A DNA stretch of 23,872 nt from a virus, in the IMG/VR virus record IMGVR_UViG_3300047550_002510, positions 1 through 23,872 of that record. One strand, written 5' to 3'. Shown piece by piece: positions 2,475 to 5,771 of the stretch. The stretch's first letter is position 1. Every line of letters begins with the position of its first letter. Both the position numbers and the translations under genes were made by a program. Under the pieces are notes generated by a model, which was given only the letters and a program-made list of their open reading frames with translations, was not told where the DNA came from and did no database searches.

Positions 2475-2508
2475 TATTTAAATAAATAATACATTATATT
2501 AATGGGGG

Positions 2509-2537
2509 TTGACAAACTTCATTGTTTGTTGTATTAT
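2509..2537 (+). promoter_or_regulatory. sigma70-type promoter at the head of the tRNA array
   Basis: TTGACA 2509-2514, 17-bp spacer, TATTAT 2532-2537. The predicted start (about 2544-2547) coincides with the 5' arm of the stem of the small RNA at 2547-2608. Confidence 0.75.
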
Positions 2538-2546
2538 TCAAATGTT

Positions 2547-2608
2547 GGTGAGTGGTTATAGCCGGTAACGGATTGGGTTAACCAGAATGTGAAAGTGCGC
2601 CACTCACC
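2547..2608 (+). ncRNA. candidate 62-nt structured RNA closed by a 9-bp stem
   Basis: A perfect 9-bp stem (GGTGAGTGG 2547-2555 with CCACTCACC 2600-2608) encloses 44 nt. These include CCG-GTAA-CGG, a hairpin with a GNRA-type loop, and a TTGG/CCAG mini-stem. It is tRNA-sized and starts where the promoter predicts, but has no T-arm consensus and no anticodon arm, so it is not an ordinary tRNA. A small RNA or a degenerate tRNA-like element are both possible. Confidence 0.45.
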
Positions 2609-2616
2609 GACGCGGC

Positions 2617-2645
2617 TTGACAAAATAGAAACAATATAGTAAAAT
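2617..2645 (+). promoter_or_regulatory. sigma70-type promoter before tRNA-Glu
   Basis: TTGACA 2617-2622, 17-bp spacer, TAAAAT 2640-2645. The predicted start is about two bases before the mature tRNA-Glu 5' end. Confidence 0.65.
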
Positions 2646-2653
2646 TAGTATCT

Positions 2654-2725
2654 GCCGCGTTCGTCTATCGGTTAGGACATAGCCCTTTCAAGGCTAGAAG
2701 GCGGGTTCGATTCCCGCACGCGGTA
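2654..2725 (+). tRNA. tRNA-Glu(TTC)
   Basis: Acceptor GCCGCGT/ACGCGGT (G1.U72 wobble), anticodon arm TAGCC-CTTTCAA-GGCTA with anticodon TTC, T-arm GCGGG-TTCGATT-CCCGC. No encoded CCA. Confidence 0.92.
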
Positions 2726-2733
2726 TGTATCAT

Positions 2734-2804
2734 TGCCCTCTCGTTCAATGGCAGGACTGCGGACTTTGGATCCGCTAATCGTGGTTCGAATCCACGGGGG
2801 GCAA
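2734..2804 (+). tRNA. tRNA-Gln(TTG)
   Basis: Acceptor TGCCCTC/GGGGGCA with one T.G pair, anticodon stem GCGGA/TCCGC, loop CTTTGGA giving anticodon TTG, T-arm CGTGG-TTCGAAT-CCACG. No encoded CCA. Confidence 0.92.
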
Positions 2805-2807
2805 CTT

Positions 2808-2838
2808 GGTTAGGGAAATACCCTAATCATATTTTCGA
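2808..2838 (+). terminator. weak terminator-like hairpin after tRNA-Gln
   Basis: GGTTAGGG (2808-2815) pairs with CCCTAATC (2821-2828) around a five-base loop and is followed by an AT-rich stretch with TTTT. The T-run is short, so it may be a processing hairpin instead. Confidence 0.4.
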
Positions 2839-2861
2839 AAATTCTTTTTATGGAGTACTTT

Positions 2862-3038
2862 ATGTACAAGCTTTTCGTTGTCTTTGCTGTTGCTGGTCTT
2901 ACCGCTTGTGGTTCGTCCGCCTCGTCTGACGCGGCCACTACGACCGATTCTTCGGCTGTTGTCATCACGGCTACCCCTGATACGACTCATGCGGATTCGT
3001 CGGTTCACGCACCGGCTGCTGACTCGCTCGCTAAGTAA
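2862..3038 (+). CDS. small lipoprotein
   Basis: Has 58 residues: a short signal peptide with lipobox LTAC, so lipidation is expected at C16, followed by a low-complexity tail of Ala, Ser, Thr and Asp (disordered). Start 2862 was chosen over ATG 2850 because GGAG (2852-2855) lies six bases upstream of it. It could be an outer-membrane spanin partner or a superinfection-exclusion lipoprotein. No inner-membrane spanin is seen alongside, so the role is open. The stop codon abuts the hammerhead ribozyme. Confidence 0.7.
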   Translation: MYKLFVVFAVAGLTACGSSASSDAATTTDSSAVVITATPDTTHADSSVHAPAADSLAK

Positions 3039-3146
3039 GCAATACTGACGAGCCCTTAATGGGCGAAAGGTTTCCCACGGCGAATCTAGAGCATAGGGAA
3101 ATTAAAATGGGGTACACTCTTGAACGCCGTCCCCAACCTCTATTGC
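3039..3146 (+). ncRNA. hammerhead ribozyme (type I topology)
   Basis: All conserved core positions are present: CTGACGA (CUGANGA) at 3045-3051; stem II GCCC/GGGC (3052-3055/3061-3064, loop TTAAT); GAAA at 3065-3068; cleavage triplet CTC at 3138-3140. Stem I GCAATA/TATTGC (3039-3044/3141-3146) is perfect. Stem III pairs AGGTT with AACCT (3068-3072/3135-3139). After a 4x4 internal loop it continues as ACGGCG/CGCCGT (3077-3082/3125-3130), capped by 42 nt. Predicted self-cleavage falls between 3140 and 3141. AAGT (3033-3036) and ACTT (3153-3156) could extend stem I and provide the internal loop that normally contacts loop II. It starts one base after the lipoprotein stop and would separate that mRNA from the tRNA transcript. 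Confidence 0.85.
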
Positions 3147-3344
3147 AAGGCGACTTCCCTGTAATCGTATGTACCGGAATTAGTCTAATCAACGATGGTA
3201 AATGGTAAGCGCACCAGACTCGTTGACCCATCCGATAGAATCATTTTCCGATGTTTCAATTCACGGGTGATAATAAAATAAATTAGACAATATCGGGGGA
3301 GTTACGGTTGTCCCCATAGGAGTGGCCACTTCAACAACCCTAAC
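3147..3344 (+). ncRNA. structured non-coding leader between ribozyme and tRNA-Gly
   Basis: About 200 nt with no credible ORF. It contains complementary pairs: TCAACGA/TCGTTGA (3189-3195/3220-3226), CCGATA/TATCGG (3232-3237/3291-3296), GTCTAAT/ATTAGAC (3183-3189/3282-3288) and GGTTGT/ACAACC (3306-3311/3334-3339), the last enclosing the palindrome AGTGGCCACT. The first and third pairs share base 3189 and may compete. This would be the 5' part of the ribozyme's downstream cleavage product. Function is unknown. Confidence 0.4.
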
Positions 3345-3415
3345 GCGGTTCTAGTGTAATAGCTAGCACGGTTGGCTTCCAGCTAACAGGTCCGGTGCAA
3401 CTCCGTGGAACCGCT
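3345..3415 (+). tRNA. tRNA-Gly(TCC) with atypical T-arm
   Basis: Perfect acceptor GCGGTTC/GAACCGC, anticodon loop CTTCCAG (TCC), U73 as in Gly tRNAs. The T-arm is abnormal: loop TGCAACT lacks the usual TTCG start and the T-stem has a C.T mismatch. It may be degenerate, since a second, normal Gly(TCC) lies at 8355. Confidence 0.7.
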
Positions 3416-3426
3416 CTTGTAACAAC

Positions 3427-3508
3427 GCATTCGTGGCGGAATTGGCAGACGCACCAGATTTAGGCTCTGGCACCGAAAGGTGTGTGGGTTCGACTCCCTC
3501 CGAATGCA
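3427..3508 (+). tRNA. tRNA-Leu(TAG)
   Basis: Class II tRNA. Acceptor GCATTCG/CGAATGC, anticodon arm CCAGA-TTTAGGC-TCTGG (TAG), long variable arm, A73. Confidence 0.93.
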
Positions 3509-3513
3509 TGGGC

Positions 3514-3542
3514 TTGACAAGTTACACATAATTGGTTATGTT
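3514..3542 (+). promoter_or_regulatory. sigma70-type promoter for the large structured RNA
   Basis: TTGACA 3514-3519, 17-bp spacer, TATGTT 3537-3542 (weak -10). The predicted start is near 3549. Confidence 0.55.
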
Positions 3543-3548
3543 GAAGGT

Positions 3549-4003
3549 GTTGTTGGAAATCCGGCGTGACGATGATTCATTTAATAATAATTCCGTCACG
3601 AATCGGTTAGCAATCTTCGATGATTGCTGTAAACGAGGCACGGCACTCGGGGTAAAAGTCCTCCTTGAACCGTAGTTGTATCCATCGTGTCCTAACCTAC
3701 GATGTAAAAAACGACCTTCGGGTAAGATGTTAGGGCGGTCACATACCGTAATTATGTGCGGGCTTAGCGCCGAGACAAGGCTAAGAAGGGTGGTTCTCTT
3801 GTTAGCGGCATATGGGCCGACTATCTGAAACAACTGGTGTATCGGTGGGTACATCACTAATCTGAATTCGGTTAGTAAATAGTAGGCGTGATACACCTAC
3901 TACCACATCTCCACAGTTGCATTAATGTCAACGTGGGGAATCCTCCTTGTGGTTGTTGGTGCGCTGTACCCCCGAAGCGCGTTATAAATCTCGGGGGTTT
4001 TTT
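3549..4003 (+). ncRNA. large structured RNA (~455 nt) of unknown class in the tRNA array
   Basis: A non-coding unit between its own promoter and a strong terminator. Visible helices: 3565-3571/3594-3600, 3609-3615/3622-3628, 3683-3688/3699-3704, 3691-3696/3729-3734 (crossing the previous one, so a pseudoknot), 3714-3716/3721-3723 with a TTCG loop, 3740-3745/3753-3758, 3763-3768/3780-3785, 3806-3809/3816-3819, 3836-3843/3890-3897, 3881-3886/3896-3901 and 3911-3919/3929-3936. No plus-strand ORF is present. Size, pseudoknots and tRNA neighbours resemble the ornate phage RNAs GOLLD and ROOL. I cannot confirm membership, and it may be a new class. Confidence 0.65.
3969..4003 (+). terminator. intrinsic terminator of the large structured RNA
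   Basis: CCCCCGA (3969-3975) pairs with TCGGGGG (3991-3997), followed by six T ending one base before tRNA-Lys. GCGC pairs (3961-3964/3977-3980) cross the stem, so an alternative pseudoknotted fold could let transcription into the tRNAs. Confidence 0.8.
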
Positions 4004-4077
4004 GCTCCTATAGTGTCAACGGTTAGCACAAGAGACTTTTAATCTCTACAGTCTTGGTTCGAATCCAAGTGGGAGCA
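4004..4077 (+). tRNA. tRNA-Lys(TTT)
   Basis: Acceptor GCTCCTA/TGGGAGC, anticodon arm AGAGA-CTTTTAA-TCTCT (TTT), T-arm CTTGG-TTCGAAT-CCAAG, A73. Its 5' end touches the T-run of the preceding terminator. Confidence 0.92.
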
Positions 4078-4081
4078 TTAT

Positions 4082-4155
4082 CCGCCGATGGCCAAATGGT
4101 GAAGGCAGCGGTCTTATATACCGAAGATGTGCAGGTTCAAGTCCTGCTCGGCGGA
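4082..4155 (+). tRNA. tRNA-Ile(TAT)
   Basis: Acceptor CCGCCGA/TCGGCGG, A73, T-arm GCAGG-TTCAAGT-CCTGC. Anticodon loop CTTATAT gives TAT (reads AUA). The outer anticodon-stem pair is a G.A mismatch. Confidence 0.75.
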
Positions 4156-4159
4156 CTTC

Positions 4160-4233
4160 GGGCCGTTAGCTCAGTCGGTTAGAGCACGCGACTCATAATC
4201 GTGCGGTCCTGGGTTCAAGTCCCAGACGGCCCA
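4160..4233 (+). tRNA. tRNA with CAT anticodon (Ile2 or elongator Met)
   Basis: Acceptor GGGCCGT/ACGGCCC, anticodon arm CGCGA-CTCATAA-TCGTG (CAT), A73. The CGACTCATAATCG core resembles bacterial lysidine-modified tRNA-Ile2, but Met cannot be excluded. Confidence 0.85.
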
Positions 4234-4242
4234 TTGTTGTAC

Positions 4243-4325
4243 GCCCTGGTGGTGGAATGGTATACACAGCAGACTTAAAATCTGCCGGCCTTACGGCCTT
4301 GCGAGTTCGAGTCTCGCCCTGGGCA
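4243..4325 (+). tRNA. tRNA-Leu(TAA)
   Basis: Class II. Anticodon arm GCAGA-CTTAAAA-TCTGC (TAA); variable stem GGCC/GGCC. Acceptor GCCCTGG/CCTGGGC has a T.T mismatch at pair 5-68. Confidence 0.9.
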
Positions 4326-4344
4326 TCACACTACTTATATTAGC

Positions 4345-4427
4345 GCTGGTGTAGCAAAGTGGCCAACTGCCCTTGATTTGTAATCAAGTCTCGAAAGAGT
4401 TCGTGGGTTCGAATCCCACCGCCAGCT
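4345..4427 (+). tRNA. tRNA-Thr(TGT) on a class II scaffold
   Basis: Acceptor GCTGGTG/CGCCAGC, T-arm GTGGG-TTCGAAT-CCCAC, U73. Anticodon arm CTTGA-TTTGTAA-TCAAG gives TGT. The three-bp D-stem and a long variable arm with a TCTC-GAAA-GAG hairpin are class II features, unexpected for Thr. A Tyr (GTA) reading would need a shifted, unpaired stem. Confidence 0.75.
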
Positions 4428-4450
4428 CTTTAACCTTAATGGAGTTAGTT

Positions 4451-4543
4451 ATGCCACATCCAAAAAAGTGCGGAAAGGGTCGTCGTAAGGTCGGCTCAAA
4501 GAAACGTAGAAATCGTTGGAAGAATAGAAAGCGTAAATTCTAA
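4451..4543 (+). CDS. 30-residue highly basic micro-protein
   Basis: GGAG at 4441-4444 precedes ATG 4451. The 30 residues include 16 Lys/Arg spread over the whole length (…KKCGKGRRKVGSKKRR…), with a single Cys and Trp. Such composition suggests nucleic-acid binding, for example an RNA chaperone or condensing peptide, or a ribosomal-protein-like fragment. I do not recognise a family. It sits between tRNA-Thr and another micro-gene in the tRNA transcript. Confidence 0.55.
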   Translation: MPHPKKCGKGRRKVGSKKRRNRWKNRKRKF

Positions 4544-5323: not shown

Positions 5324-5396
5324 GCCAAGATAGCTCAGTTGGTAGAGCGCAGCCCTGAAGAGGCTGGCGTCGGGGGTTCGACTCCCTCTCTTGGCA
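5324..5396 (+). tRNA. tRNA-Phe(GAA)
   Basis: Acceptor GCCAAGA/TCTTGGC, anticodon arm CAGCC-CTGAAGA-GGCTG (GAA), A73. Confidence 0.93.
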
Positions 5397-5411
5397 TCAA
5401 TCGGAGAAAGT

Positions 5412-5771
5412 ATGAGGTTCTTAACAAGAAAGTTAGTACAACCCGGCGATTTAAATGCAAACGGTACACTATTTGGTGGTCGGTGTTTAGCGTGGGTAGA
5501 CGAAGAAGCGGCAATCTACGCGGCAATAGAAACACGACATAAACGTGTAGTCACCAAAAGTATGTCAGCAATTAATTTTGCAGCGCCGGCCCGTCAAGGT
5601 GATGTAGTGGAAATCGGTATCGCACTGAAACGTGTGGGTAAAACGTCTATTACGTTAGAAGTACAAGTTCGTGATTTGACAACGCAACGTGTTATTGTTA
5701 ACATAGATGAGATGGTATTTGTGTGCGTTGACGAAAACGGAAAACCAGTTCGTCATAGTTTAGGTAGTTAG
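5412..5771 (+). CDS. acyl-CoA thioesterase, hotdog fold (YciA-like)
   Basis: Hydrolyses acyl-CoA thioesters in the cytoplasm. The 119 residues match a single hotdog domain. The motif LNANGTLFGGRCLAWVDEEA (residues 14-33) is the family's helix-capping and catalytic segment, with Asp30 as the probable catalytic residue. A later VEIGIALKRVGKTS strand also matches. Start ATG 5412 is set by GGAG at 5403-5406; the open frame upstream is tRNA-Phe. It is an unusual phage cargo gene, isolated between tRNA-Phe and tRNA-Asn. It might alter host lipid or CoA metabolism, or have been captured with the tRNAs (inference). Confidence 0.88.
   Translation: MRFLTRKLVQPGDLNANGTLFGGRCLAWVDEEAAIYAAIETRHKRVVTKSMSAINFAAPARQGDVVEIGIALKRVGKTSITLEVQVRDLTTQRVIVNIDEMVFVCVDENGKPVRHSLGS

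Follow-up and report, generated by a model that had tools for sequence, protein, structure and literature searches.

The window, that is, the whole stretch of 23,872 nucleotides of viral DNA that was analyzed (IMG/VR record IMGVR_UViG_3300047550_002510), contains a tRNA cluster in which a small lipoprotein gene and a hammerhead ribozyme motif lie between tRNA-Gln and tRNA-Gly. The genes and signals of this part of the cluster are as follows:

2509..2537, plus strand: sigma-70-like promoter TTGACA-17-TATTAT (consensus match), upstream of the first tRNAs
2617..2645, plus strand: second promoter-like sequence TTGACA-17-TAAAAT (consensus match), just before tRNA-Glu
2653..2726, plus strand: tRNA-Glu(TTC)
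2734..2805, plus strand: tRNA-Gln(TTG)
2850..3038, plus strand: small lipoprotein ORF, 62 aa, lipobox LTAC, stop codon TAA at 3036-3038, weak phrog_542 match
3147..3344, plus strand: downstream RNA, from the cleavage site to the tRNA-Gly-like gene (comparison with L161)
3345..3416, plus strand: tRNA-Gly(TCC) with noncanonical D and T loops
3427..3508, plus strand: tRNA-Leu(TAG)

The total of promoter-like matches in the region, including those at 2509 and 2617, was not above chance. In the related record L161, a perfect TTGACA-17-TATAAT is located at the place matching the promoter at 2509..2537. A terminator-like hairpin lies at 2807-2829 and might place the first tRNAs and the lipoprotein on separate transcripts; hairpins of this kind were no more numerous than chance predicts.

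Several other features of such clusters were recorded. The tRNA-Gly(TCC)-like gene at 3345-3416 has the T loop TGCAACT and, at 39.6 bits, scores lowest of all tRNAs in the window; its homologues in L161 (3049-3119) and L173 (2250-2320), with G for U before the anticodon (CGTCCAG), were not called as tRNAs; it could be a tRNA that serves some function other than translation. Small lipoprotein-like genes were found in the tRNA clusters of many related phages, namely, L141, L142, L146-L151, L154, and L155, some ending right before a tRNA. Between tRNA-Leu and tRNA-Lys, at about 3545-4010, lies a probable noncoding RNA of about 450 nt with about 72% identity in L126/L161, a promoter-like TTGACA-17-TATGTT at 3514-3542, a GC-rich hairpin with a T run near 3973-4005, and no Rfam match. 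An acyl-CoA thioesterase gene of the cluster (5391-5771) shares 80-96% protein identity with many environmental phage contigs and has relatives in the jumbo phages XacN1 and RAS14. A group I intron match (55.8 bits) was located inside the phage tRNA cluster of L169 (5959-6149, minus strand), and a tmRNA gene (tag GNYTLALAA or GNTQLALAA), not found in the window, a few kilobases upstream of the cluster in the related phages L127, L130, and L133.

Direct reading of positions 3039-3146 on the plus strand revealed a complete type I hammerhead, with stem I starting at the base directly after the lipoprotein stop codon. Its elements are the following:

3039..3044, plus strand: stem I, 5' strand GCAATA (direct reading; covaries in alignment A3)
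3045..3051, plus strand: catalytic core CTGACGA, C3 to A9 (direct reading)
3052..3064, plus strand: stem II, GCCC 3052-3055 paired with GGGC 3061-3064, loop TTAAT (direct reading)
3065..3068, plus strand: core GAAA, i.e., G12, A13, A14, and A15.1 (direct reading)
3068..3072, plus strand: stem III, 5' strand AGGTT (direct reading)
3071..3135, plus strand: structured domain inside stem III (folding and comparison with L161)
3135..3139, plus strand: stem III, 3' strand AACCT, U16.1 being 3139 (direct reading)
3140..3141, plus strand: predicted cleavage after C17, H17 being C3140 (direct reading and established hammerhead numbering)
3141..3146, plus strand: stem I, 3' strand TATTGC, the first bases of the predicted 5'-OH product (direct reading)

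The core agrees at 3045-3051, 3065-3068, 3139, and 3140 with the hammerhead consensus C3 U4 G5 A6 N7 G8 A9, G12 A13 A14, A15.1-U16.1, and H17, as given in PMC3088659. Three helices surround it, of 6 bp (I), 4 bp (II), and 5 bp (III), in the type I order I-core-II-GAAA-III-H17-I', with stem I open and stems II and III closed. Beyond stem III, ACGGCG 3077-3082 pairs additionally with CGCCGT 3125-3130. The initial annotation had given the same core, CTC triplet, stem lengths, and further 6-bp helix, and all of these, with their coordinates, held on direct reading. The loop TTAAT and the flanks AG...CAA match a pattern recurrent in phage type I hammerheads, a candidate stem I/loop II contact. An extension of stem I by TCGC 3028-3031 and GCGA 3150-3153 was dropped, as it is not kept in L161.

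The descriptor scan of the window yielded this single match. When one strand of 400 first-order (dinucleotide) resampled windows was scanned, no motif of equal quality appeared (0/400), and 2 matches across the set equalled it in total number of pairs. A 3' strand alone, defined as the A-U pair with three more pairs of stem III, H17, and six pairs of stem I within 150 nt, occurred by chance in 0.22% of trials.

A covariance model, R1, was built from 16 hammerheads of other phages, none a member of the window's family, and scored the window at 37 bits (E 1.5e-7, 46.8 kb searched). Its alignment placed the 3' strand at the substrate-like TCTAGAGCA (3085), 55 nt short of the true one, because the 70-nt insert exceeds the short stem III of the model. 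The score therefore supports the 5' half only, namely, the core, stem II, and GAAA, and the true 3' strand is assigned on the basis of the homologues and the chance estimate of 0.22%. Within stem III, at 3085-3096, lies TCTAGAGCATAG, a sequence similar to the true substrate strand TCTATTGCAAGG and mostly preserved in L161.

The search with Rfam hammerhead models proposed in the initial annotation was run and gave no hammerhead in the window at gathering thresholds; the best match was Hammerhead_3 (RF00008) with a score of 13.9 bits (E 2.7), where gathering requires 48.5. This was an unfair test. On 14 other phage loci, 11 of them with textbook hammerheads, Rfam reported no hammerhead either, and because it misses every canonical control tested (11/11), its silence is uninformative for phage type I hammerheads. 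Model R1 found no match in phages XacN1, RAS14, Mel-JY01, and LR756508, model searches of the 166-kb and 164-kb relatives found no second hammerhead, and among other tRNA-rich relatives, many of whose records are fragments, none was found except in L166. BLAST of 2500-4500 and 3030-3240 against phage records returned tRNA or chance matches only, without the element. The homologue search by the neighboring 1829-2200 protein and the pattern search of bacterial and archaeal genomes gave no match, and a pattern derived from the downstream RNA retrieved two already-known homologues and one chance match (L167).

The same element, with 90% identity, is carried by L161 and by the 166.6-kb contig L126/L162; across the 370 aligned nt these two records do not differ, and they are treated as a single lineage. 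The core of L161 is intact, as in the window, with a change solely at the free position N7, while stem II shows a compensatory change from C-G to G-C and 4 bp of stem III are kept. A divergent version was found in L166/L169 and in L173 (163.9-kb contig), where a homologous lipoprotein gene ends one or two bases before the hammerhead starts and stem III is of other sequence but still paired. Lipoprotein homologues thus precede the hammerhead in both L161/L126 and L166/L173, and the order of lipoprotein gene, stop codon, hammerhead, RNA, and tRNA-Gly-like gene is kept in the window, L161, and L173. The two tRNAs ahead of the lipoprotein gene, tRNA-Glu and tRNA-Gln, also belong to this shared arrangement. 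Across the window, L161/L162, L166, and L173, all 14 of 14 pairs of stems I to III are retained, five of them with changes on both sides; in a slid-partner control, pairing fell to 29-43% of cells. The set comprises only four sequences, and two of them, L166 and L173, are closely related; the independent events are therefore fewer than the changed cells. Identity with the homologues reached 85-90% in the hammerhead block, compared to 69-74% in neighboring coding blocks, and was 85% for the block 3029-3420 against L161. Motif, conservation, and place were in this way established by sequence and comparison. Core position 13 is a pyrimidine in two relatives, C in L166 (GCAA) and U in L173 (GTAA), versus GAAA. 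Most core changes reduce or abolish hammerhead activity and some natural variants work (PMC3088659); judged from this substitution, the elements of L166 and L173 may be slow or inactive.

The initial annotation described stem III correctly as 5 bp plus a 6-bp helix, missing the conserved structured domain inside it as well as the homologues. The helices of this domain are TTTCCC 3071-3076/GGGAAA 3096-3101, ACGGCG 3077-3082/CGCCGT 3125-3130, and TGGGG 3108-3112/CCCCA 3131-3135. TTTCCC/GGGAAA and CGGCG/CGCCG are common to the window and L161, as is the third helix, TGGGG/CCCCA in the window, with a G-C to A-T change. When nested, the first and last are compatible and the middle one is not, so the helices represent alternatives or a kissing pair. 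The span of stem III is 72 nt, compared to a median of 16 nt, and a span of at least 60 nt occurs in 1 of 116 type I hammerheads among the matches listed. The minimum-energy fold of the window contains TTTCCC/GGGAAA and no stem III, at -32.0 kcal/mol versus -29.4 kcal/mol for the hammerhead fold, a gap of 2.6 kcal/mol in which tertiary contacts are not counted. For L161, folding at minimum energy gives the hammerhead, its CGGCG stem extended. The 8-bp stem III of L173 bears another multi-helix domain, and the minimum-energy fold of that sequence has the three hammerhead stems. The insert sequences of the window/L161 and L166/L173 subgroups are unrelated yet both form multiple helices, and the domain is therefore conserved as a feature, not as a sequence. 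It probably stabilizes the 3' end of the mRNA or tunes the ribozyme.

Downstream of the predicted cleavage site, 3150-3240 is about as highly conserved as the ribozyme, with the helix CAACGA/TCGTTG changed to CAATGA/TCATTG in L161. A tmRNA, an RNase P RNA, and a group I intron were considered by eye for 3036-3345, and Rfam supported none of them.

Phage hammerheads have been described before, and their function is unknown (PMC3088659; review PMC6155905). The element was set against a degenerate pattern scan of IMG/VR with at least 120 stretches, a pattern-defined sample and no census. The descriptor scan of the listed stretches counted at least 116-118 type I and at least 46 type III hammerheads, often several per contig. 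Contigs L036, L072, L022, L045, and L082 each have three to seven type I hammerheads between successive genes. Flanks AG...CAA and the loop TNAAT recur in many phage type I members among the matches listed. The sixteen type I members from which model R1 was made contained 62 double-changed pair cells versus 17 in shuffles, a strong covariation that is expected, since the selecting descriptor demands the pairs. Among the matches listed, 30% of type I members (35 of 116) begin no more than 3 nt from the stop of an ORF of at least 80 codons, compared to 1.2% of random positions. A start beside a stop codon, which the initial annotation had regarded as unusual, is therefore normal for phage type I hammerheads. 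Its companion claim, that the tRNA setting is unusual, agrees with most of the sampled loci among the matches listed, which are without tRNA, and has to be qualified, since a type I hammerhead also lies close to tRNA genes in no fewer than four other phage contigs (L003, L008, L083, and L115). There, 4-45 nt separate the hammerhead from the 3' end of a tRNA encoded upstream on the same strand, and the ribozyme possibly cuts tRNA trailers from downstream RNA. The class and the stop-codon placement of the window's hammerhead are ordinary, whereas its tRNA-operon setting and large stem III domain are unusual.

Taken as a whole, 3039-3146 encodes a genuine hammerhead that is very probably active. 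That it merely resembles a hammerhead by chance is so improbable as to be negligible: such motifs do arise in large data, and two equal-pair matches appeared in 400 shuffles, but related phages have the same placement, with 14 of 14 pairs kept, five of them compensatory, and the motif shows 90% identity across its length plus an independent model match. The homologues refute chance resemblance in practice, and the initial annotation, which had judged a chance origin very unlikely, was right in this. A decayed, inactive hammerhead-like structure kept for another use, e.g., as a 3' stabilizer of the lipoprotein mRNA, is unlikely. The C or U at position 13 in L166/L173, where the stems are kept by paired changes, and the absence of stem III from the best fold of the window would fit such decay; however, the cores of the window and L161 are intact, with only the free N7 varying, and intact-core hammerheads of other phages have matching flanks and a matching loop II. 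Rather doubtful, too, is a sensor function of the stem III domain, in which GGTTTCCC/GGGAAATT pairing would disrupt stem III and a ligand, a protein, or translation of the lipoprotein would shift the balance. An insert of this size, conserved and multi-helical (72 nt versus a median of 16, one of 116 at 60 nt or more among the matches listed), competing folds within 2.6 kcal/mol in the window, and a different but likewise multi-helix insert in L173 are consistent with it. Against it, the insert sequence is unrelated between the subgroups, unlike an aptamer, the Rfam riboswitch search of the window gave no match at E up to 10, and the active fold is already the best in L161. Its strongest form, a natural allosteric hammerhead in which an infection signal toggles between GGTTTCCC/GGGAAATT and the active fold and so gates the release of mRNA and noncoding RNA from the tRNA operon, is a model to which we give very little weight.

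Likely, on the evidence of the sequence, is a type I hammerhead that operates within a phage tRNA operon and cleaves itself between 3140 and 3141, yielding the lipoprotein mRNA and an RNA of about 200 nt with tRNAs. The following account of cotranscription, of cleavage in the cell, and of what becomes of each product is inferred. A single transcript would comprise tRNA-Glu, tRNA-Gln, the lipoprotein mRNA, the hammerhead, the structured RNA of about 200 nt, tRNA-Gly, and tRNA-Leu; the ribozyme would fold during transcription and then cut between 3140 and 3141. The upstream product would be the lipoprotein mRNA, with the folded ribozyme body retained as a 3' tail that runs 102 nt past the stop codon and terminates in a 2',3'-cyclic phosphate. 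The downstream product would begin with a 5'-OH at 3141 and contain the structured RNA and the following tRNAs. The separation of the lipoprotein mRNA from the downstream RNA and tRNAs by this cut, predicted in the initial annotation, is supported by the complete motif and the conserved pairs. RNase P, which processes tRNA 5' ends, can free the tRNAs alone, so the ribozyme more likely serves the mRNA 3' end or the 200-nt RNA than the tRNAs. In the related records L141 and L147, which have no hammerhead, no more than about 35 nt separate the lipoprotein stop codon from a tRNA, and judging by these, RNase P could part mRNA and tRNA without a hammerhead. A real hammerhead might instead serve to define precisely the 5' end of a structured phage noncoding RNA of about 200 nt (3141-3344), with RNase P making its 3' end at the tRNA-Gly-like gene and the separation of the mRNA incidental, a possibility we hold tentatively. 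It is suggested by the conservation of 3150-3240, comparable to that of the ribozyme and with paired changes, by the almost direct step from lipoprotein stop to tRNA in the hammerhead-less L141 and L147, and by the distance of 204 nt from the cleavage site to the following tRNA, which is too great for the cut to form a tRNA end. The downstream sequence differs in L173/L166, however, and most members of the sampled class among the matches listed lie between two protein genes without structured downstream RNA.

The hammerhead family of the window has a fixed place in a defined transcript, beside a stop codon, a structured RNA, and tRNAs, so its products can be named and measured. The location of about a third of the sampled type I hammerheads (among the matches listed) at a stop codon supports a general role for them in severing the genes of polycistronic phage RNAs from one another. 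As natural experiments, the large stem III domain and the variants at position 13 can show how much change the core and the arms tolerate.

Among known systems, Rfam Hammerhead_3 (RF00008), the only Rfam match, aligns with the core and stem II of the window and differs in its type III topology, wrong for a type I element. Theta ribozymes, HDV-like and located within 5 nt of phage tRNA 3' ends (PMC10879173), are likewise a small self-cleaving ribozyme class in phage tRNA clusters that probably processes tRNA-containing transcripts. They form a nested double pseudoknot, in contrast to the hammerhead fold of the window, whose predicted cleavage lies 336 nt behind the preceding tRNA (3' end at 2805) and 204 nt before the next one and involves no suppressor tRNA. 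With this fold and a predicted cleavage at 3140, far from the tRNA 3' end at 2805, an identity as a theta ribozyme was rejected. The literature search, whose coverage did not extend to many subscription papers and preprints, found no paper on hammerheads in phage tRNA clusters. The hammerheads of L003, L008, L083, and L115 share the proximity to same-strand tRNA genes but lie 4-45 nt behind the tRNA 3' end with a short stem III, and no lipoprotein gene was seen between. With the type I hammerheads of phages and prophages (Perreault et al. 2011, PMC3088659; PMC6155905), the element has the core, the three stems, the open stem I, and the intergenic placement in common, and its loop II and stem I flanks are those of many IMG/VR phage examples. 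It differs from them in the 70-nt multi-helix stem III domain, in its place behind a lipoprotein gene in a tRNA operon, and, according to the model search of the 166-kb relative, in being present as a single copy, whereas other phages often have several. Unusual here are that 70-nt domain, the conserved order of lipoprotein gene, hammerhead, RNA, and tRNA, and the pyrimidine at core position 13 in two relatives.
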